Assembly: GCF_000235405.2 (NCBI RefSeq)
Contig: NC_017095.1
Span: 1,451,501-1,515,500 of the forward strand
Direction of reading: 5' to 3'
Origin: Fervidobacterium pennivorans DSM 9078
GTDB lineage: Bacteria > Thermotogota > Thermotogae > Thermotogales > Fervidobacteriaceae
Length of the DNA: 64,000 bases
Both the position numbers and the translations under genes were made by a program. The notes under the pieces are model-generated. The model was not told the DNA's origin. It did not search any database and was given only the letters and a program-made list of their open reading frames with translations. Positions within the stretch are counted from its first letter, which is position 1. Every line of letters begins with the position of its first letter. This document shows, piece after piece, positions 35,132 through 45,857 of this stretch.

Positions 35132-37756
35132 TTAGTTTTTCACAAATACATAAACTTGTCTTGGATTAACTGTCCAGTTAGTATCGTTTGTTAATGGACT
35201 TTCACTCTTTGGCCCGAATTCAAACATTGAACCGTTGAAGAACGCATACCACACCCATCTGTAACCTGCAGGCACAGTATAGTTATTGGACCATGTTGGG
35301 TCAAGATTGATAAGGACAAGCACTTCTTGTGTTCCATACACCCGTTTAATCACATATAAATTCTTCCAATCTCTTTCTATTGTCAATGAACCTTTTGCCA
35401 ATGCCGGATAGCTCGCCCTCAAGTTAATAAATTGTTTGAAGAAATTCAGTATACTATAACCTGTTTGTTCTTCTTCCACCGATACTCCATCGTTTGGGTC
35501 ATCATACATCGCTCCGTCTACATTCGCATTCCCAAAGGTTATGTTTTTCTGTTGATATATAGGCTTAGTCCACCATGTTTGTCCTGCACTCTGTTGATTG
35601 GCATACCATTGCATCGGCTCTCTCACTGGTAAATCCCAAGGGTCACTGTTCCATTTCCATCCCCTTAAGCCAATCTCGTCACCATAGTAAATTACTGGCA
35701 TTCCATTAAGTGAGAGTAGTAAAGCATTCGTCAACAGATATTGTCTTATCCCCGCTTGCGTGTCACCTGAATATTTTTGGTCTATCAATACAGAAATCCA
35801 TCTGTTCAAATCGTGGCTATCGATAAACGGGAAGTGTTTTACGTTAAGATAATACGTTGCTCCGTTGACCCAGGAGATTGTCTCTCCAAGCAAATTGTCT
35901 TTTCCTTCGTGATTTCCAGTGATTCCATACATGAACGTGAAATTGAATGCTGGCATTGGAGCAAACTGAGAGAGCACAGATGGATTTCCATCGTATACCT
36001 CACCAACCACTATCGCATCGTTCCCAAGCTTACTTCTGATATAACTTTCTATCTGCTTTGCATAGTATGCAGACCCTGCTATGTCATCATTCCAATCCCA
36101 ACCTTTATAATGCTTTGGTGCGTCAAGCCTGAATCCATCAACACCAACCGTTATCCAAAAATCGACTATCCTCTTTATCTCTTCCATTACCGCGGGGTTA
36201 TCGAAATTCAAATCTGGCATCGACGAATCAAACAACCCAAAGTAATAAACTTTTTGACCTTTAGAGTTTATCTTCCAGTGCCAGTGGTCCCATCCGTCTC
36301 TATTTTCCAATGTCATGATGTAATAATTCCAATATTTCGAATTCGTTGTATTTTCAACCGCATCGAGGAACCACGGATGGGTATCGGAAGTGTGGTTAAC
36401 GACTAAGTCCATAACTACCCTGATGCCGTTTTGGTTGAGCACCTTTATCATGTTCTCAAGGTCTACAAATGTACCATAGTCTGGTTCTACACCGTAGTAA
36501 TCTTCGACATCGTAACCATGGTATGATTTGGCTTTGTTGAAAGGAAGGAACCAAACTGTGTCAACACCCAGGGATTTAAGATAGTCTATCTTTTGAGAAA
36601 CCCCCTTAAAATCACCTATTCCATCACCATTTGAATCGTAGAATGAGCGTATGAAAAGAGTGTACATTGTTGAAGATGTCAATGGTACGTTAATTGACGT
36701 GATATTGACGTTTGATTTGTCAATGTATTCTATCTTGCTTTCCTTTCCATTAACAACCGCACGGACACCAATTTTTTGCACATTCCAAAAATCTACCCCA
36801 AGGAGTTCTTGTGTACTTGAGTGTGAAGTTGTTATGTCCCAAAGAGAAAGGTTGTTGTTTTTATCCAAAAAATAAACGTAAAATTTCGCGTTAGCTATCG
36901 ACGAAGGATAAGACCAATTTATCGTTAATTCGTTCGTATCAACATTGTAGATAGCACCAGTAATTGTAGGAGCGAGTGCCCCGAATTTGTATGTAATCTG
37001 CGGATGACCTTCTGCTGGGTCAAAGAAAATCCTAAATCCATCTAAAACACTTGTAAGTCCAGGTTTTATTTCAACACTTACAGCTATTTCGTCCAGATTG
37101 TTACTCCATTCTTCTGAAGTTGCCTTATTCTTCAGCCTTGCAGAAATACCAACAGAATACACTCTTGGATAGCAGTCAATAGAGATACTTAATCTTGTAG
37201 CTTGTGGTGTTATCTGGAAATTCTCATCTTTGATAACATTACCTGAGCTGTCTTTTAGAAGAGCTCTTAATTCCTGAACATCATACATAACCAACAATTC
37301 ATCATCTAAATCTACAAAGACTGCAAGATAACCATTTACAAATTTTGTATCTATGGAAATTGTGTAACTTTGCCCTGGTTGGAGGGTTTGTGTTTTTTCA
37401 CCTGTAAAGACCAAGCTGTTGTCGTTTCGTTTTCCATTTACAACGAATTTGTAGGTACCACCTCTTGGTAATTCAAATGAAAATGATATATCTTTATTTT
37501 TGTTCACACTCTGCTTAAGAACTTCCGTGTTCGCCGAATCGTAAACAATCAACTCGACACTCGATACTTCGTCGATGTATGCATTAAGACCATGTTTTAT
37601 GTCCTTCGTTTCTACCGATTTGGGAATATTAACATTTATCGAAATTTGTATCTTGCCAGCCGTTTTCAAAGGAGAACATGCTGAAAGACTAAGAACAATA
37701 ATTAAGACAATCAACACTCCAAAAGATAATAAGTCAAGCTTGTTGATTCTGAGCAC
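35132..37756 (-). CDS. GH13 alpha-amylase-type lipoprotein
   Basis: An 874-residue enzyme anchored by a lipobox (LSAC, Cys27). Residues 30-350 form several beta-domains of unknown family. The GH13 barrel starts near 363 (YTLFIRSFYDSNGDG) and has all four regions: DLVVNHTS (near 450), GFRLDAPKH (nucleophile Asp545), VVGEVYDG (acid/base Glu586) and FIDSHDLNR (His648-Asp649). The C-terminal domain ends RQVYVFVKN. It should hydrolyse starch, glycogen or maltodextrin outside the inner membrane. The start is GTG with GGGAGG ten bases upstream. It sits between the ABC importer and the glucan-binding lipoproteins. T. maritima AmyA is also a lipoprotein, but the long N-terminal part differs. Confidence 0.9.
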   Translation of the reverse strand: MLRINKLDLLSFGVLIVLIIVLSLSACSPLKTAGKIQISINVNIPKSVETKDIKHGLNAYIDEVSSVELIVYDSANTEVLKQSVNKNKDISFSFELPRGGTYKFVVNGKRNDNSLVFTGEKTQTLQPGQSYTISIDTKFVNGYLAVFVDLDDELLVMYDVQELRALLKDSSGNVIKDENFQITPQATRLSISIDCYPRVYSVGISARLKNKATSEEWSNNLDEIAVSVEIKPGLTSVLDGFRIFFDPAEGHPQITYKFGALAPTITGAIYNVDTNELTINWSYPSSIANAKFYVYFLDKNNNLSLWDITTSHSSTQELLGVDFWNVQKIGVRAVVNGKESKIEYIDKSNVNITSINVPLTSSTMYTLFIRSFYDSNGDGIGDFKGVSQKIDYLKSLGVDTVWFLPFNKAKSYHGYDVEDYYGVEPDYGTFVDLENMIKVLNQNGIRVVMDLVVNHTSDTHPWFLDAVENTTNSKYWNYYIMTLENRDGWDHWHWKINSKGQKVYYFGLFDSSMPDLNFDNPAVMEEIKRIVDFWITVGVDGFRLDAPKHYKGWDWNDDIAGSAYYAKQIESYIRSKLGNDAIVVGEVYDGNPSVLSQFAPMPAFNFTFMYGITGNHEGKDNLLGETISWVNGATYYLNVKHFPFIDSHDLNRWISVLIDQKYSGDTQAGIRQYLLTNALLLSLNGMPVIYYGDEIGLRGWKWNSDPWDLPVREPMQWYANQQSAGQTWWTKPIYQQKNITFGNANVDGAMYDDPNDGVSVEEEQTGYSILNFFKQFINLRASYPALAKGSLTIERDWKNLYVIKRVYGTQEVLVLINLDPTWSNNYTVPAGYRWVWYAFFNGSMFEFGPKSESPLTNDTNWTVNPRQVYVFVKN

Positions 37757-37921: not shown

Positions 37922-38917
37922 TTATTTTATTTTACCTTCATGCACTAAATAACAAGCAACGTAGTGACCAGGTGCAACTTCTTTCAGTTCCGGGTGCGGG
38001 TCCGTTTTACACCTGTCAACTCTAAATGGACATCTGTCATAGAATCTGCATATTGGTGGTGGGTCAATTGGTGCACTTATATTTCCAATGATATTCGGCT
38101 CATTCCTTTTGTATTCTGGGTCTGGCACAGGAACAGCGTCCATTAAAGCTCGTGTGTATGGGTGCATAGGATGATGTAATAATTCTTCAGTTTCGGCAAG
38201 TTCGACAATCTTTCCAAGGTACATAACCGCTATCCTGTTAACCATGTATCTTGCAACCGCAAGGTCGTGTGTTATGTATAGGTAACTCATTCCATGAATT
38301 TGTTGTAATTCCATCATTAGCTCCATAACTGCTGTTCTGACAGAAACATCCAACATCGATGTTGGTTCGTCTGCGACGATGAGTTTAGGATTCAAAACGA
38401 GTGCCCTTGCGATAGCAACTCTTTGTCTTTGACCACCGGAAAGTTCATGAGGATATCTCCACAAAAAGCTGTCAGGTGGTGTAAGACCAACTTCCTGGAG
38501 TAGTTGTGAGACTTTCTCTTCTCTGTCTTCAAGTGTTCCAACGTTATGTATATTTAGTGGTTCTGCTATTATGTCGAATATAGTCATCCTTGGGTTTAGA
38601 GATTCGTATGGGTCTTGGAATATCATTTGAACCATCGCATGGTATTCCATCCGTTCATATTCATCGATGTTTTTGCCAAGTACTTTTATCGTCCCATCCG
38701 TTGGTGTTTCCAATCTTACAACCATCCTACCAGTCGTTGTTTTTCCACAACCAGATTCACCAACAAGTCCCAGCGACTCGCCTTCCAAAATTTCGAACGA
38801 TACGTCATCTACTGCATGGACAAAATGTTTTGCCCTGGAAAAGAGTGCTCTTTCGGCCGGAAAGTATTTCTTCAAATTCTTTATTTCAAGTAGTACATTT
38901 TTATTTTCTAAACGCAT
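37922..38917 (-). CDS. ABC transporter ATPase (OppF/DppF type)
   Basis: A 331-residue ATPase of the peptide/oligosaccharide (Opp/Dpp) importer class. It shows Walker A GESGCGKTT, the signature LSGGQRQR, Walker B LIVADEPTSMLD and a switch histidine in ITHD. The C-terminal extension has CRFYDRCPF with further cysteines (CKTDPHP and CYLV), the four-cysteine cluster common to this class. It overlaps the OppD-type gene by 17 bases. Thermotogales use such importers for sugars as often as for peptides, so the annotation by name does not fix the substrate. Confidence 0.93.
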   Translation of the reverse strand: MRLENKNVLLEIKNLKKYFPAERALFSRAKHFVHAVDDVSFEILEGESLGLVGESGCGKTTTGRMVVRLETPTDGTIKVLGKNIDEYERMEYHAMVQMIFQDPYESLNPRMTIFDIIAEPLNIHNVGTLEDREEKVSQLLQEVGLTPPDSFLWRYPHELSGGQRQRVAIARALVLNPKLIVADEPTSMLDVSVRTAVMELMMELQQIHGMSYLYITHDLAVARYMVNRIAVMYLGKIVELAETEELLHHPMHPYTRALMDAVPVPDPEYKRNEPNIIGNISAPIDPPPICRFYDRCPFRVDRCKTDPHPELKEVAPGHYVACYLVHEGKIK

Positions 38918-39902
38918 CTCTTCTCACCTCTTCAGTCAGTGGGTGCCAGCATGCTACATAGTGTCCTTTTTCAACCTCTTTGTATTCCGGCTCATCGGTT
39001 CGGCACTTATCCGTTGCCCATGGACATCTTGGTGCGAATCGACATCCTGTAGGCGGATTGAGCAAGTTTGGTGGCTCTCCAGGTATTGTAAATAGCTTTT
39101 TCTTCTCACCAACGTGGCTCGGGAATGCATTCATAAGCAAGAACGTGTACGGATGCATCGGACGTTTGAAGACAGTTGTTGCATCTGCTTGTTCAACAAA
39201 CTTTCCTGCATACATTACAGCAATTTTATCGCTTACTTCTGCAATAACTGCAATATCATGAGAAATGTAAATCATCGCCATGTTCAGTTCTTTTTGAATT
39301 TTCTTCAATTCTCGTAATATCTTGTCCTGAACGATAACATCCAAAGCTGTTGTTGGTTCGTCTGCAATTATAACCTTGGGGTTACAAGATAGCGACAGTG
39401 CGATAACTGCCCTTTGTTTCATACCACCACTGTATTGGTGAGGGTATTGGTCCATACGTTTTGGGTCGAGCGTTACTAATTCAAAAAGCTTTGCAACTTT
39501 CGCTCTTGCTTCGTCGATAGGCGTATCTGGATAGTGGTTGAGTATAGCTTCAACGATTTGGTCACCGACTCTGTACACTGGGTTTAGCGAATTCATTGCA
39601 GCTTGGAAAACCATTGAAATACCTTTCCATCTATAGTGGCGCATTTCTTCTTCTGATAAGCTAACGAGGTCGACCATCTTTCCATTATCATTGAACCATA
39701 CATGTCCACCCTTAAATTCTGCGTTTTCTGGTAGTATCCTTAACAATGTCATTGAAACTGACGTTTTACCACAACCAGATTCACCGACTATACCTAGACT
39801 TTCTCCGGCTTCTAACTCAAACGATATCCCATCAACGGCTTTTACATAGCCCATTTTTGTTTTGTAATGCATCTTTAAGTCTTCAACTTTCAACACTGCC
39901 AC
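38901..39902 (-). CDS. ABC transporter ATPase (OppD/DppD type)
   Basis: A 333-residue partner ATPase. Walker A is GESGCGKTS, the signature motif reads YSGGMKQR, Walker B is VIIADEPTTALD and the switch is ISHD. The C-terminal cysteine cluster (GCRFAPRCPW, KCRTDEP, ACWHP) is also present. The frame opens at a GTG inside the ribosome site; GTG at 39902, a few bases after AGAGGTGAT, is the better start. It follows the OppC-type permease with its start codon just inside or next to that gene's stop region, so translation is coupled. Confidence 0.93.
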   Translation of the reverse strand: MAVLKVEDLKMHYKTKMGYVKAVDGISFELEAGESLGIVGESGCGKTSVSMTLLRILPENAEFKGGHVWFNDNGKMVDLVSLSEEEMRHYRWKGISMVFQAAMNSLNPVYRVGDQIVEAILNHYPDTPIDEARAKVAKLFELVTLDPKRMDQYPHQYSGGMKQRAVIALSLSCNPKVIIADEPTTALDVIVQDKILRELKKIQKELNMAMIYISHDIAVIAEVSDKIAVMYAGKFVEQADATTVFKRPMHPYTFLLMNAFPSHVGEKKKLFTIPGEPPNLLNPPTGCRFAPRCPWATDKCRTDEPEYKEVEKGHYVACWHPLTEEVRRDAFRK

Positions 39903-39907
39903 AACAA

Positions 39908-42394
39908 TCACCTCTTTCTAAGTCTTGGGTTGACTATTTCTTCAAGTCCCCTACCGAGGAAGTAGAAGGCAGAACAAAGAAGCGTGATAGCTCCACCGGC
40001 TGGAACCCACATCCACCAGTAAGCGCCGATGTTACCAGAGCCAAGGTAACCAGAACTCCAAACAGTATTTATCATCAATCCCCAAGACATCCTTACTTTC
40101 ATTAATCCAAAGAAGCTAAGAACCGCTTCTGAAAAGACTGCACCTGTGACATTGAACATCATATACAGGAACGAAAGAGGCATGACATTCGGGATTATGT
40201 GGTTGAATATGATGTACCCATGGCTACCTCCTGAAACTCTCGCTGCATCTATGTAAGGTTTGACCTTAATTGTAAGTGCTTGAGCTTTCAAAACAAGCGT
40301 AATGCCTCCAAAACCACCGAGTAAACCAAGTATGACTGCAAGCTTAAATAAATTCATCGTCATGAAACCAGAGAGGACTATCAAGAACGCTGTTGATGGG
40401 AAGAGCATCATCAAGTCGGCTATGCGCATGAATATAACATCAACAACTCCACCATAGTAAGCTGCCGCAGTACCAATTATCGTACCAATTACAACCGTAA
40501 TGAGTGCTGCAAGCACACCAAGAACAAATTCACTTGGAGTACTTACCATTAGTTGCACCAATACATCCCTTCCAACAGGGTCCGTTCCGAGCCAATGCCA
40601 TCTGTTTGGTGGAAGCGGATGAGCAACACCAATTTTATTGGTAATAGACAGCCTATTGAATAACTCAACAAGCTTTGTCTCAGCAAATTTCTTATCCCAC
40701 TCTACTTTTTTTGGTTGCATTTTTGCAACCGTTTCAGAAGAAATCTTGTCCCAAAGAGTGGTGTCCTCAAGATGCATCTTATGTTCTTCTATCATCCTCA
40801 GGTATATTTCTTCGTTGATATCTCCTTGACCAATCAAAAAGTTCACTGCTTCAATAGGCTCTTTATTTTCGTAGTTTTTCAGTTTTTCAACTATATCTAA
40901 CCGTTTGAAATCATCCAGCTGTGAATTCTCTATGTTGGAAATAACTTTTTGTAGTTTATTCGTTCCTCCAAAGGCGTAGCCCATAAGAGATGCAACTGGG
41001 TCAGATAATACCTTTACAACCTGACTACCAAGTGTTTCGTAACTCTCAGGAACGTTAGTATCGTTCAGAAGTATTGCCATCATTGACCTTGCCATTGCTA
41101 TATCTTTGAATATCTTGTTCAACTCATAGACATATGATTTATGAGTTTCTTCGGAGTATTTTCTTATATCATTCTCAAGTTTCGCTCTTGTTTCGGGACC
41201 GATATCGACAGAAACTTTTGCTAGTTCAAAACCGGCGTATGCTTCCAAGAATTTTTCCACATTCTTGTAAGAAACTTCAACGCCAGCTTCCTTCATTTCT
41301 TCTTCGACTGTTGTAAGCGTTGCCTTAGCCTTTTTCAAAGCAGGTTCAAGTATTTCTTTTCTTGAAAGATCAGAAAGCTTACCCTTTGCAATGTCTACAA
41401 GATGCTTAAATTTGGATGCGTTTAGTTTCTCGGTTATTTCTTTATCTTCGTATCCTACTACTAACAGTTCCTGAATCAACGGAAAAACGGCTGCGTTAAC
41501 CAAATCTGAAATACTAACAATATCGTTGTTCACTATTTCTGAAAATTGTGAGTCCGAAGTTACAAAAAGTTGCTGTCCAGTGCTTTCGGACACTAAAGTC
41601 TTAGCAACTTCTAGCACTTTATTTTCAGCTTCCTCAACTTGCTCTTGTGGATACTCGGCGGATAATTTTGTATTGAAATCCTCAACAACTTCCGACTTAT
41701 CTCTGTTCAAACTCCTAAACCATAGCATTATTCTTGAGACTTCATCTGAATCTTTGTAAGGAGACAAAGCAATTGCCAATGTTATGTAATCAACTTTTTG
41801 GAGCAATTCTGAGAAATTCTGGAAAGAGAATTTATCCCTGTTTCCTATATCTTTAACGCTGACCAGCGCAGAGAATTTAATTATACCTCTCTCAACAAGC
41901 TCTGAAATGCTATTTTGGAAGTACATTCTCTCTTTAAGAGGGATATAACTATCAGCTATTGTATCAAGCAAGTGTCTAAGAGCATCTGGTGCGTAAGTCG
42001 ACATAATTTCATATTGTGAGTTTCTCACTAAGTTTTCCATAGACGATTTGAAAGCTTCTCCTTTGTCCATAAACGAGTAAACCCAAATCTGAGCTGTTGG
42101 AACTTCGATTCCCTTAATTAAGTTCTGAGTTGATAAGTAGTCAGTGATGTACTTACTGGAAAGTATCCTTGGATCAAGACCTGTGACAGGATCGTAGATG
42201 TTCGGATCAAGGATGTTGAGAACAATTGGTGATAGTGCTCCAAATATACCAAAAGCTATGATGACCCAAAGCCCAAACATTCCCATTTTGCTCTCTTTGA
42301 AGAGTGCCCAGTTCTTTTTGAAATTTTTAATAAAAAGCTTAAACTTTATCTTCAATATCGATTCTTTAAGTTCAGTGTTTTTAGTTTGTGCCAT
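39908..42394 (-). CDS. ABC transporter permease (OppC/DppC type) with a ~515-residue insertion
   Basis: An inner-membrane permease of 828 residues, whereas OppC proteins usually have about 300. The first transmembrane helix (residues 40-60) and the C-terminal core (from 595) are normal: HWLGTDPVGRDVL opens the core, and the EAA loop reads DAARVSGGSHGYIIFNHIIPN. Between them (about 75-590) is a helix-rich, charged, cysteine-free insertion with no transmembrane segments, which topology places outside the inner membrane. I recognise no domain in it. The frame is continuous with an AGGTGAT ribosome site, so it is not an assembly artefact of two genes. It may reach toward the toga or help the binding protein. 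Confidence 0.9.
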   Translation of the reverse strand: MAQTKNTELKESILKIKFKLFIKNFKKNWALFKESKMGMFGLWVIIAFGIFGALSPIVLNILDPNIYDPVTGLDPRILSSKYITDYLSTQNLIKGIEVPTAQIWVYSFMDKGEAFKSSMENLVRNSQYEIMSTYAPDALRHLLDTIADSYIPLKERMYFQNSISELVERGIIKFSALVSVKDIGNRDKFSFQNFSELLQKVDYITLAIALSPYKDSDEVSRIMLWFRSLNRDKSEVVEDFNTKLSAEYPQEQVEEAENKVLEVAKTLVSESTGQQLFVTSDSQFSEIVNNDIVSISDLVNAAVFPLIQELLVVGYEDKEITEKLNASKFKHLVDIAKGKLSDLSRKEILEPALKKAKATLTTVEEEMKEAGVEVSYKNVEKFLEAYAGFELAKVSVDIGPETRAKLENDIRKYSEETHKSYVYELNKIFKDIAMARSMMAILLNDTNVPESYETLGSQVVKVLSDPVASLMGYAFGGTNKLQKVISNIENSQLDDFKRLDIVEKLKNYENKEPIEAVNFLIGQGDINEEIYLRMIEEHKMHLEDTTLWDKISSETVAKMQPKKVEWDKKFAETKLVELFNRLSITNKIGVAHPLPPNRWHWLGTDPVGRDVLVQLMVSTPSEFVLGVLAALITVVIGTIIGTAAAYYGGVVDVIFMRIADLMMLFPSTAFLIVLSGFMTMNLFKLAVILGLLGGFGGITLVLKAQALTIKVKPYIDAARVSGGSHGYIIFNHIIPNVMPLSFLYMMFNVTGAVFSEAVLSFFGLMKVRMSWGLMINTVWSSGYLGSGNIGAYWWMWVPAGGAITLLCSAFYFLGRGLEEIVNPRLRKR

Positions 42395-42409: not shown

Positions 42410-43789
42410 TCAGTACCTGATTCTTGGGTCTAAGAATGCGTAAAGTACATCAGCAACCAGGTGGGCGACAAGTACCAAAACACCTGTAAAGACCAGACAA
42501 CCAATAGCTAACGGTGTATCTTGAGAAGTTGTTGCCTCAAGAAGGGTAAGTCCCATACCTTTCCACGAGAACATCGTTTCTGTGATAACTCCTCCGCTTA
42601 CTGTAGAAGCAAGACCTATAACAAAACTGGTCATTAAAGGTAACAAAGCGGTTCTTGCGGCATGCTTATCTCGTATAACCTTATCTGGAAGTCCCTTCGC
42701 CCGGGCGGTTGTAATATAGTCTTCTTTAATGACTTCAAGCATGGTATCACGCATAACAAGCATATCTCCGGCAAAGTGCAATGTCACAAGCGCAATTACA
42801 GGGAGTGCAAGATGGTAGATTATATCAAGAGCATAGCTTCCCATTTTGTTAACACTCCAGTAAATGATTGCAAGAACAACACCTGCTATAACGAACGACC
42901 AAACAGCAGTTTTTTTAGCCTTTATCGTTTTTAACTTCGATGCTACTACGATACCGATAATCCACATAACAAGCAAAAAGAATTCCGTCCACAATAACCT
43001 TATGAATACATCCTGCGCACTAAATGGCGCATTGAACCACTTTGAAGGAGTAACAAAACCAGACAACGGGAACCACTTTAATGTAACAGCAAAGAGCCAT
43101 ATAAGAATAAGCATGTAGAATGGAGTGAAAATCGTCCAAAAAACAATTCCCACAAATGTGGCTGCTTTATCTATTAATCCTCCCCTTCTCCATGCAATTC
43201 TTTTTCCAAGGTCAAAACCAAGTAAAAATGAAAGCACAGAACTTGCAAGAAACAAGAACAAAGTCCTTGGTAACCTTTCAGCGATGATTTCTTCAACTTT
43301 CCTAGGATATTCACTGAATGATATACCCATCTCCAAATTGAAGAAATTTCTCATGTGTTTGTAATACTTAACATACCACGGGTCGTCCACACCAAAGAGT
43401 TTTTTTATTCTTTCATACATTTCAGGATTTCTCATCAACTTTGGATCCAAAAATTTCGTTGTGTAATCACCGGGCATGGCTAAGAAAATAAAGAAGACAA
43501 CGGTTACGTAGATAACAAGCAGAAGGATAATCTGAGCAGTCCTGTTCCTGATGAACTTGGCAAGTCCCGGAAGGTCAAAACCATAGAAGTATACTATAGG
43601 TGCGAGGATAAAATTAAATCTTGGGCTAAAAAGGTAAAGGTATCTCACATTGAAAAGAGCACCATAGTACAGTGCGAGTGAGATTACAAGGAATATGTAA
43701 TTAATAGGTTTTTTACCTTTCTTGAGGGAAAAATAGGTACCTACCAAAGGTATCACGAGTGCGTATAAAACCAGTTCCCAACTTCTCAT
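42410..43789 (-). CDS. ABC transporter permease (OppB/DppB type), enlarged
   Basis: A 459-residue permease; typical OppB proteins have 310-340. The standard start (a helix with a run like FIRNRTAQIILLLVIYV) lies only near residue 80, so there is an N-terminal extension with two or three extra membrane helices. A second extra piece, about 60 residues with further helices (FFLLVMWIIGIVVASKL and on), interrupts the central part. The EAA loop TTARAKGLPDKVIRDKHAARTA is intact. ATG at 43789 is preferred over GTG at 43795 because of AGAGG spacing. It follows the binding-protein gene after 147 bases that contain a strong hairpin. Confidence 0.9.
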   Translation of the reverse strand: MRSWELVLYALVIPLVGTYFSLKKGKKPINYIFLVISLALYYGALFNVRYLYLFSPRFNFILAPIVYFYGFDLPGLAKFIRNRTAQIILLLVIYVTVVFFIFLAMPGDYTTKFLDPKLMRNPEMYERIKKLFGVDDPWYVKYYKHMRNFFNLEMGISFSEYPRKVEEIIAERLPRTLFLFLASSVLSFLLGFDLGKRIAWRRGGLIDKAATFVGIVFWTIFTPFYMLILIWLFAVTLKWFPLSGFVTPSKWFNAPFSAQDVFIRLLWTEFFLLVMWIIGIVVASKLKTIKAKKTAVWSFVIAGVVLAIIYWSVNKMGSYALDIIYHLALPVIALVTLHFAGDMLVMRDTMLEVIKEDYITTARAKGLPDKVIRDKHAARTALLPLMTSFVIGLASTVSGGVITETMFSWKGMGLTLLEATTSQDTPLAIGCLVFTGVLVLVAHLVADVLYAFLDPRIRY

Positions 43790-43882
43790 CTTCACCTCTC
43801 CCTTTAATCAGTTTGGACACGTTTATATTCTTTGGAAAATTTTTCAGCGAGTTTTGAATCTCTCAAGATTTCATTTAATAAT

Positions 43883-43936: not shown

Positions 43937-45751
43937 TTATTGAACTTTTTTCACACCTTCTGGGAATCCATAGTAACCTTGAATACCATCAAGCATCTGG
44001 TCAAATGGGAATTTGATTGATGTTCTGTAGGCTTCAATTAATGGGTTCGTGAAGAGAATTATGTATGGCAAGTCTTCTGCCAGAATCCTTTGAGCTTCGA
44101 ATATAGCTTTTCTTGCTTGCTCAAATGTATCTGCGTATTCGAATTCCTCAATAAGTGCATCGAATTCTGGGTTAGAATAACCTGGCGTGTTGAATCCTTC
44201 TGGTGCCATTTCTTCACTGTGCCAGAATGACTTGAAGTATGTTGGAACCCTACCAATTCCCCAACCAAGTATATACATATCAAAGTCAACGTCATCAAAT
44301 GCTTTTGTTACTATTTCGTTGAAGTCTGTGAGTTTCAAATTGAGTGGTATACCGATGTTCTTTGCCCATTGTTCAATGTACATTGCTGTCTGTGCTCTCA
44401 TTGGGTCGTAGTCCATACCAGGTGAAAGGAGCGTGAGTGTTGGTACTGGTTTCCCATCTGGACCTTTCAAGCCTTTACCAGGTGTCTTGACTGGGTTCTT
44501 TGTGTCTTTTGGATCGATAACGGGTTCTGTATCCCATTTGAAGCCAGCTTTCTTGAGCAAGCTGACTGCAAGTTGATATCTTTCACCCATGCTGAGTCCT
44601 TCACCGATGGTCTTAACAGCAGAGTTGTACCAGAAACTATTTGCTGGTGGTACTGGTGTTGCAAGTGGAATTGCTCTTCCTTGGAGCACTTGGTTACAAA
44701 TGAAATCGCGGTCGATAAGTGCAGCTATAGCTTGCCTGAATTCCTTAACATTCATTGGGAACTTTCTCATATTGAATGCAAGGTATCTGAATCCAAGTTG
44801 TGGGTTGGAAACTATCTTTATATCCTTTTGACCTTTGAGTTGTTCAGCCTCACCAGCGGTAAGTCCAACTGGGTTGTAAATATAGTCAATATCGCCAGCG
44901 ATGAGAGCCTGGATAGCAACCTGTTTGTTACCGAATACCTTGTAAACAATTGTGTCTACAAATGGTCCATTCTCCACTTGAAGTGTGACAGGTTGTTTTG
45001 TGTCTCCAGTTGACCATTTGAAACCTGTTTTTGGGTTAACAATTGAGAACCCGCCACCTTTGTAGTAAATGTTCTTTTCACCGTATGCCCAGTATTTGTA
45101 ATCTGGTACCTGTTTTGTAACTTGTACAAACGCACCTTTTTCAATCTTTCCAAGGTTCAATGCAGTTATACCTGGGTCAATAACTTCTTGTGAAAGTAAC
45201 CATTTTACTGGATCTTTTTGCTTCTTTGCCTTTTCTACTATCGGTTTCCAGTAGTTGCTACAAACAATAGCCGTCATGAGCGTGTCATAGTAAATCGTCA
45301 TCGTTTCCTTTTCTTTGAAGTAGAATTTCACAGTCCAAGTGTCAATTTTTTCGACTTTTTCTGGTTCGTATGCTCCAGACCAGTTACCGCCAGGAATTTC
45401 CATTTCCTTAACTGTCATGTAAGTGAAGACAACATCGTCTGCTGTAAATGGAGCACCGTTTGACCAGCGCATGTCTTTTCTGAGTTTCACTGTAACAGTG
45501 TACATGTTCCCTTCTTTGACGAGTTTTGGGATTTCTGTAGCTGCCGAAGGAATAAGAGTACCATCCTTGTTCATACCAAGCAAGGAAGGATACTTCCAAA
45601 GCTGAACAGCGAAGTTCTGAGCGGAAGAACCGGAACCAAGCAAGTTCCAGATGTTGGTCGTTGTAATATCAGCAAAGATACCGTAGTTAACCTGCACTGC
45701 AAAAATAGACAACGCAACGAGTACCAAAAGTCCCACAAGAACCTTTTTCAC
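43937..45751 (-). CDS. Family 5 extracellular solute-binding protein
   Basis: A 604-residue periplasmic binding protein of the OppA/DppA family. A signal peptide (VLVGLLVLVALSIFA) is followed by the family core: WSNGAPFTADDVVFT near residue 105, GFRYLAFNMRKFPMNVKEFRQAIA in the middle, and ILGWGIGRVPTYF near the C-terminus. There is no lipobox. In Thermotoga many family 5 proteins bind oligosaccharides; with amylase and starch-binding genes next door, a malto-oligosaccharide ligand is likely but unproven. The start is GTG at 45751, eight bases after AAGGAGG. It is first in the importer operon, under a strong promoter. Confidence 0.9.
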   Translation of the reverse strand: MKKVLVGLLVLVALSIFAVQVNYGIFADITTTNIWNLLGSGSSAQNFAVQLWKYPSLLGMNKDGTLIPSAATEIPKLVKEGNMYTVTVKLRKDMRWSNGAPFTADDVVFTYMTVKEMEIPGGNWSGAYEPEKVEKIDTWTVKFYFKEKETMTIYYDTLMTAIVCSNYWKPIVEKAKKQKDPVKWLLSQEVIDPGITALNLGKIEKGAFVQVTKQVPDYKYWAYGEKNIYYKGGGFSIVNPKTGFKWSTGDTKQPVTLQVENGPFVDTIVYKVFGNKQVAIQALIAGDIDYIYNPVGLTAGEAEQLKGQKDIKIVSNPQLGFRYLAFNMRKFPMNVKEFRQAIAALIDRDFICNQVLQGRAIPLATPVPPANSFWYNSAVKTIGEGLSMGERYQLAVSLLKKAGFKWDTEPVIDPKDTKNPVKTPGKGLKGPDGKPVPTLTLLSPGMDYDPMRAQTAMYIEQWAKNIGIPLNLKLTDFNEIVTKAFDDVDFDMYILGWGIGRVPTYFKSFWHSEEMAPEGFNTPGYSNPEFDALIEEFEYADTFEQARKAIFEAQRILAEDLPYIILFTNPLIEAYRTSIKFPFDQMLDGIQGYYGFPEGVKKVQ

Positions 45752-45857
45752 AGCCAACCCCTCCTTTTATTGTGGTGTGGGAAGTCCCCCCCTATTTTTC
45801 TCATGAACAATTAAATTTAATGCACAAGAGCCTATCACCTTTACAATTTTCGTATTA

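Follow-up and report, generated by a model that had tools for sequence, protein, structure and literature searches.

Related transport systems

Type I importers are usually pictured as an invariant core with minor additions. The Opp/Dpp/App importers (E. coli OppBCDF, 8z21, and DppBCDF, 8z1v; M. tuberculosis OppABCD, 8j5q) share with the importer described here the gene set, the OppB/OppC core, the ATPases and the family-5 binding protein. This importer lies in a window of 64,000 nucleotides (the whole stretch of DNA that was analysed) from Fervidobacterium pennivorans DSM 9078, a heat-loving bacterium, and differs from those systems by extra OppB N-terminal helices, a central OppB hairpin and a domain of about 530 aa between TM1 and TM2 of OppC. 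The importer belongs to the Opp class, and its additions make it a variant of that class.

Enlarged permeases are described in the maltose-type systems. According to the available parts of PMC8134467 and PMC2246101, E. coli MalF has 8 helices and a large periplasmic P2 loop that lies against the binding protein. MalF thus has both features in one subunit, whereas the window importer splits them over two. In the case of the Thermotogales proteins MalG1 and MalG2, the available text of the 2008 report (PMC2246101) describes a giant hydrophilic TM1-TM2 region of about 500 aa, function unknown, in proteins that are paired with an enlarged, eight-helix MalF. These proteins resemble the window OppC in having a large TM1-TM2 domain in the second permease and an enlarged partner, but they belong to the maltose-type family; as far as that text goes, they are the closest precedent for the window OppC/OppB pair. 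The genome under study also encodes two second permeases, 719 and 803 aa long (L031:3621-5780 and L032:2640-5051), with TM1-TM2 domains of about 490-560 aa, which we take to be MalG-like by gene order. When the ectodomains of L031 and L032, which are only MalG-like candidates, were compared with the OppC ectodomain as single sequences using phmmer, no match was found to E 10.

Among the matches listed, the titles and abstract openings of open-licence PubMed Central articles gave no description of enlarged OppB/OppC in Thermotogota. ABC transporters are named for keratin use by Fervidobacterium in the available part of PMC13157175, which does not name the window operon.

Gene, operon and class

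The OppB-type permease ORF (P0001) occupies positions 42410-43789 on the minus strand, with an ATG at 43789, and encodes 459 aa. The stretch GGGAGAGG stands just before this ATG and could act as a ribosome site; an alternative GTG start at 43795 would give 461 aa. The gene order is family-5 binding protein, OppB, OppC, OppD, OppF and then a GH13 gene (Pfam). The features are as follows.

42410..43789, minus strand: OppB-type permease, 459 aa (Pfam, alignment to solved OppB)
43568..43789, minus strand: OppB N-terminal extension, residues 1-74, predicted helices 3-24, 28-45 and 56-68; in f1 and f11 members only
42827..43054, minus strand: OppB central insert, residues 246-321, hairpin helices 258-284 and 289-314 with a Lys-rich tip; in every orthologue analysed
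39908..42394, minus strand: OppC-type partner permease, 828 aa
40625..42208, minus strand: OppC ectodomain, residues 63-590, in the TM1-TM2 interval, all-helical in the model
41582..41872, minus strand: putative FliG_C-like part of the OppC ectodomain, OppC residues 175-271, with weak sequence support
43937..45757, minus strand: family-5 solute-binding protein, 606 aa, of ordinary size
38901..39911, minus strand: OppD-type ATPase
37922..38917, minus strand: OppF-type ATPase

As the OppB half, the gene belongs to an ordinary Opp-type ABC importer of five genes (type I, family-5 binding protein), and it stands with OppC, two Opp-type ATPases and the family-5 binding protein. In the Pfam scan, the OppB N-terminal domain covers residues 78-176 and BPD_transp_1 covers residues 298-458; PF00528 and PF19300 were found in order at 99.6 and 38.0 bits, respectively, against cut-offs of 26.4 and 23.8. 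NCBIfam calls the protein an OppB relative at scores below the cut-off of all 12 models matched, and it falls outside the Opp4B equivalog NF045472 (197.6 bits, 450 needed). Residues 77-456 showed the core fold of E. coli OppB (8z21_A; Z 17.0, rmsd 4.1, 277 aligned).

A standard core with two additions of different age

The window OppB consists of a standard core and two additions that differ in age. The initial annotation had described it as an enlarged protein of 459 residues, with an N-terminal extension of about 80 residues carrying two or three helices and a central insert of about 60 residues with further helices. The ORF, Pfam and the alignment to solved chains all bore out this anatomy. 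The alignment with solved OppB/DppB chains begins near residue 76 and runs to residue 459, with a gap in mid-protein; residues 1-74 (about 75 residues) therefore precede the standard protein. In the centre, residues 246-321 make up 76 residues where three ordinary OppB proteins of the same genome have 15, 34 and 15; thus, measured from landmark to landmark (76 vs 15-34), the true central surplus is about 40-60 residues.

AlphaFold2, run with a 44-row alignment, predicted helices 3-24 and 28-45 and a short helix 56-68 in the extension (block pLDDT 68-85) and helices 258-284 and 289-314 in the centre (block pLDDT 79-92), in a middling single-chain model (mean pLDDT 68, pTM 0.56). A hydropathy scan, which is stricter than AlphaFold2, gave one segment in the window extension and two in the centre, and one to four segments in the extension of the f1/f11 relatives in which it is intact. 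Lys and Arg abound at the tip of the central hairpin, both in the window OppB and in the relatives displayed, so this tip is probably cytoplasmic by the positive-inside rule; the hairpin would then add two membrane passes in the outer TM3-TM4 loop and leave the remaining topology unchanged. As a Lys-rich stretch sits between helices 1 and 2 of the extension, the sequence suggests three passes with the N-terminus outside in this genus. Four relatives (L049, L051, L054 and L055) have an additional hydrophobic stretch at the OppB start.

The Pfam scan of the extension in five members returned no recognised family, with stray matches only (the best, MASE6, at E 0.045 in one member). The MalF-type family PF16296 (TM_PBP2_N) did not match the extension of the window protein and four relatives to E 10 with the HMMER filters on; a permease of the same genome (L032:5054-6757) does match this family. 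A copy of the TM2-TM3 region was considered as the source of either addition and rejected: for the central insert, as an older copy, the profiles reached 33% over 30 columns and HMM scores of at most 2.8 bits, which is within the control range, and for the extension the best scores were -6.6 to 3.4 bits in three members.

The central insert is widespread and occurs also beside ordinary OppC

A phylum search of 103 Thermotogota genomes gave 46 orthologous loci, of which 45 were analysed (G073, at a contig end, was omitted); the alignment A1 holds 44 rows, as L044/G069 was left out for its broken frame. The central segment is 76-87 residues long in 45/45 of these orthologues. No other OppB enlargement was present in 23 of the 45, whose OppC proteins are 323-360 aa long.

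Of 113 confirmed relatives in named genomes, the best 80 were used, and 19 of these 80 loci repeat loci of the Thermotogota set. Among the best 80 of 113, there were 67 OppB ORFs outside Thermotogota with a centre of at least 70 residues, in 60 loci (Chloroflexota 47, Bipolaricaulota 11, Actinomycetota 7, a contig labelled Campylobacterota 1 and unassigned 1). A complete adjacent OppC was found for 62 of the 67, again among the best 80 of 113; it was 313-429 aa long, with none over 450 aa, and the other five ORFs have no complete adjacent OppC under the pairing used. The unlabelled locus L099 is the f8 Thermotogota locus L072 and was excluded from the counts 67, 60 and 62.

At L111, L128 and L157 the OppC ORFs measure 553-607 aa with a leftmost start inside OppB. 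The distance from OppC TM1 to the GTD..GRD motif, which does not depend on the start, is 32 and 36 residues in L111 and L157, and L128 is without the motif. This distance, measurable in 72 of 92 OppC ORFs, agrees with the lengths: only L085-L088, which belong to Thermotogota, exceed 78. Four Bipolaricaulota OppB proteins reach 448-456 aa, yet their OppC is only 342-348 aa.

The central insert is thus unlinked to OppC size. Judged from these sequences, the central TM hairpin is an ancestral mark of an OppB subfamily of Thermotogota, Chloroflexota, Bipolaricaulota and some Actinomycetota. The initial annotation had proposed that the two enlarged permeases evolved together, and had named the wide occurrence of enlarged OppB with normal OppC as what would refute this. 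Since a widespread insert pairs with ordinary OppC, its proposal falls for the central insert; the N-terminal extension behaves differently.

The N-terminal extension occurs with a large OppC ectodomain

The extension and the f1/f11 OppC ectodomain were each searched alone over the 103 Thermotogota genomes (E <= 1e-4). The extension was found in 18/103 genomes and the ectodomain in the identical 18, both in this gene pair. Among the 18, the extension is cut by a contig end in G073 and has a broken frame in G069; weak matches at E 0.003-0.009 (G086, G050, G039 and a second place in G075) were treated as noise. Of the 44 orthologues with a complete OppC, all 21 with OppB residues beyond the central hairpin have an OppC of 823-960 aa, and all 23 without further OppB enlargement have one of 323-360 aa. 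The N-terminal extension is a later, lineage-specific gain, present only with a helical OppC TM1-TM2 domain of about 530-640 aa. For this addition, and for the parallel pairing in the f3 lineage (see below), the claim of joint evolution stands.

In the close relative G069 (L044; G069:C1:68767-68995) the extension is divided between two overlapping frames; the remainder of OppB is uninterrupted, as is the OppC ectodomain. This is either a true loss by frameshift or a sequencing error.

A second joint gain in the f3 lineage

In the f3 lineage, 5/5 loci have an OppC ectodomain of about 670 aa and an OppB that is enlarged differently, with no N-terminal extension and about 130 additional residues after TM3. 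This insert matches the TM2-TM3 hairpin of the family twice in tandem (9.0-12.0 and 3.6-12.0 bits), and the control of 109 membrane windows reached at most 3.4 bits. The second copies, at 3.6 and 4.5 bits in 2/5 sequences, are hardly above the controls, and profile-profile comparison of the two insert copies with TM2-TM3 gave 62% and 20%. The f3 insert is likely to represent two extra copies of the TM2-TM3 hairpin, and we call this duplication likely, not proven, because of the weak second copies and these profile probabilities. Homology between the f3 and the f1/f11 OppC ectodomains was considered and was not detectable (hhalign probability under 13%).

When a tree was drawn by a quick method from the core columns of OppB, OppC, OppD and OppF (44/45 rows, L056 omitted), f1 with f11 and f3 formed separate starred clades, and the enlargement amounts to two changes in all. 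On these sequences, additional OppB helices thus seem to have been gained twice together with an OppC ectodomain, with non-homologous parts. As there are only two such co-gains, they are too few for statistics and the association may be due to chance.

OppC ectodomains beside a plain OppB

A third set of OppC ectodomains was observed in importers with an OppB of about 320 aa; the gap from TM1 to the GTD-type motif was 230-618 residues in 10/10 loci fetched. The OppB of L169 is a 323-residue frame. In the genome under study, L033 has an OppB of 321 aa with an OppC of 571 aa that carries an ectodomain, and further Opp pairs among the matches listed likewise combine an ectodomain with a plain OppB. 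An OppC ectodomain therefore does not demand extra OppB helices. The L033 insert matches 8/10 of the other third-set inserts at E <= 1e-3 and does not match those of L167 and L173, so the set may comprise more than one family.

A second Opp importer in the f3 genome G099 (L165:1430-5093) has an OppC of 907 aa and an OppB of 321 aa. Two further permease ORFs were seen in the genome under study. A solitary OppC copy of 522 aa (L034:2327-3895), without an OppB, has an insert close to that of L033, and the two ORFs beside it resemble an insertion-sequence pair. At L035:2316-3887, a single ORF of 523 aa has two BPD_transp_1 matches and represents fused permease halves.

Fold of the window OppC ectodomain

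A basic stretch lies ahead of OppC TM1, and for this reason the 528-residue insert that follows TM1 is probably extracytoplasmic. In the predicted model of OppC, the ectodomain is all-helical and modelled with confidence (block pLDDT 70-96 over residues 81-590). Foldseek returned no match to the OppC model at E <= 0.001. In a structural second look confined to Foldseek's own list, OppC residues 175-271 matched the C-terminal domain of T. maritima FliG (1qc7_B; rmsd 2.9, 85/89 residues) with a Z of 9.1, which was obtained on a predicted model and, being under 13, can reflect a common helical arrangement.

The window OppC stays below the cut-off of FliG_C (PF01706; 13.6 vs 23.3 bits, E 0.084), and DUF2551 matched its ectodomain better (E 0.0066); Cyclin_C was found in one ectodomain member at E 0.0036. 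FliG_C is the Pfam family that matches most ectodomain members (9/16 at E <= 10, best E 0.0045). When whole genomes were searched for FliG, OppC was listed in 14/15 of the f1 genomes that carry the ectodomain, at similar profile positions, as the best non-FliG match in 11 and the second or third in 3, with scores about those of the other domains of FliG itself. Profile comparison with 15 FliG proteins gave 51% for ectodomain residues 116-225 and 16.5% for the whole ectodomain. A model of the FliG-like segment was run against 5,637 ORFs, a set enriched in FliG because FliG loci had been fetched earlier by the FliG search; the first 15 matches outside the family were FliG C-domains (E 0.08-0.6). 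With the whole-ectodomain model on the same 5,637 ORFs, three non-FliG matches ranked above FliG.

From the model and these weak matches, part of the OppC ectodomain may resemble the FliG_C protein-docking helical module. It has the fold match and the weak reciprocal sequence matches in common with the ARM-like FliG_C/MgtE_N domains; unlike in those proteins, the module sits in the loop of an ABC permease and scores below the family cut-off. As given in the available parts of PMC13023049 and PMC11870540, FliG/MgtE_N ARM-like modules stack, oligomerise and occur in the periplasmic proteins FlgY/FlbB. We also considered four tandem FliG-like repeats in the ectodomain and rejected them (other segments 0.2-3.3%; non-overlapping segments at most 23% to each other), as well as a FliG relationship of the f3 ectodomain (0.1%).

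Possible role of the added parts

Type I importers have TM1 of one permease packed against the other permease. In the explanation that we prefer, with a probability of roughly one half, the window OppB is a standard core with two additions and the OppC domain is a docking arm braced by the extra OppB helices. The arm would stand outside the cytoplasm above the pore and would capture or orient the binding protein or another envelope protein, a role comparable to that of the MalF P2 loop for MalE. The extra OppB helices, which are attached to OppB TM1, would brace the membrane base of the arm. A wider form of this proposal is more doubtful: that Thermotogota Opp importers twice gained a giant OppC arm, each time with different bracing OppB helices, and that the window arm contains a FliG/MgtE_N-like docking module put to extracytoplasmic use in an ABC importer. 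If paired enlargement was repeated with non-homologous parts each time, it would point to a real mechanical need, for example for docking or tethering where the cell envelope is unusual, and the plain and enlarged orthologues of one importer provide an evolutionary comparison for testing such a need.

The main rival of the docking arm is independent neutral growth, in which both permeases of some fast-evolving Thermotogota lineages acquired dispensable additions whose joint occurrence is coincidence or shared laxity. We regard it as unlikely, though well ahead of the other alternatives. The existence of only two co-gains is compatible with it, and so is the ectodomain set that has a plain OppB. 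The added parts also evolve faster than the core: between the window and L043, identity is 66% in the ectodomain, 73% in the extension, 82% in the centre and 92-97% in the cores. However, the extension and the centre are under purifying selection, with non-synonymous change far below the near-saturated synonymous change in same-genus pairs, and neutral growth would not lead one to expect that extension and ectodomain were kept together in 18/18 genomes. It is also at odds with the conservation of the ectodomain, in which 34 positions of residues 63-240 are invariant over 16 sequences, compared with 10 in residues 241-570; the first third is the conserved part.

It is improbable that, as the initial annotation had suggested, the two permeases grew to suit a special binding protein. 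The joint occurrence of extension and ectodomain would agree with such a fit, but the central insert is independent of OppC size and the binding protein is ordinary. When 40 binding proteins were aligned and runs of at least 4 residues were counted, f1/f11 had one specific insert of 4 residues and f3 one of 6. The ATPases had no lineage-specific inserts in runs of 4 or more. Against solved structures, the binding protein matched AppA best, followed by assorted peptide and sugar binders.

There is similarly little to recommend the proposal that the N-terminal helices are a separate module (a sensor, or an assembly or quality-control anchor) which acts apart from the OppC ectodomain. Three or four helices that belong to no recognised family in the five members scanned could be such a module, but the extension is confined to this gene at E <= 1e-4 over the 103 genomes, and 0/18 of the genomes that have it are without the ectodomain. 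A lengthening of OppB through a wrong start codon or an assembly error is very improbable, since the extension is alignable, conserved and constrained over 18 genomes and a ribosome-site-like stretch stands at the ATG, even though alternative upstream starts exist and the G069 frame is broken.

Neighbouring genes

The GH13 alpha-amylase behind OppF (window 35132-37756) has a lipoprotein-like start and is a possible component of the importer. A GH13 gene in this place was also found in a few members of the genus (L041, L042, L044 and L045) and not in the other loci compared.

In the loci L054-L078 and in Bipolaricaulota loci, a small gene with a probably membrane-anchored product lies directly behind OppF. 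No clear homology links the versions of different lineages, and those scanned had no Pfam match at E 0.01. We considered this gene as a partner that was replaced and set the idea aside, given the doubtful homology and the presence of the gene in f11. It was absent from f1 (0/14), f3 (0/5), f4 (0/1) and f6 (0/1), and was present in f2 (10/11), f8 (9/10), f11 (2/3) and Bipolaricaulota (7/11).
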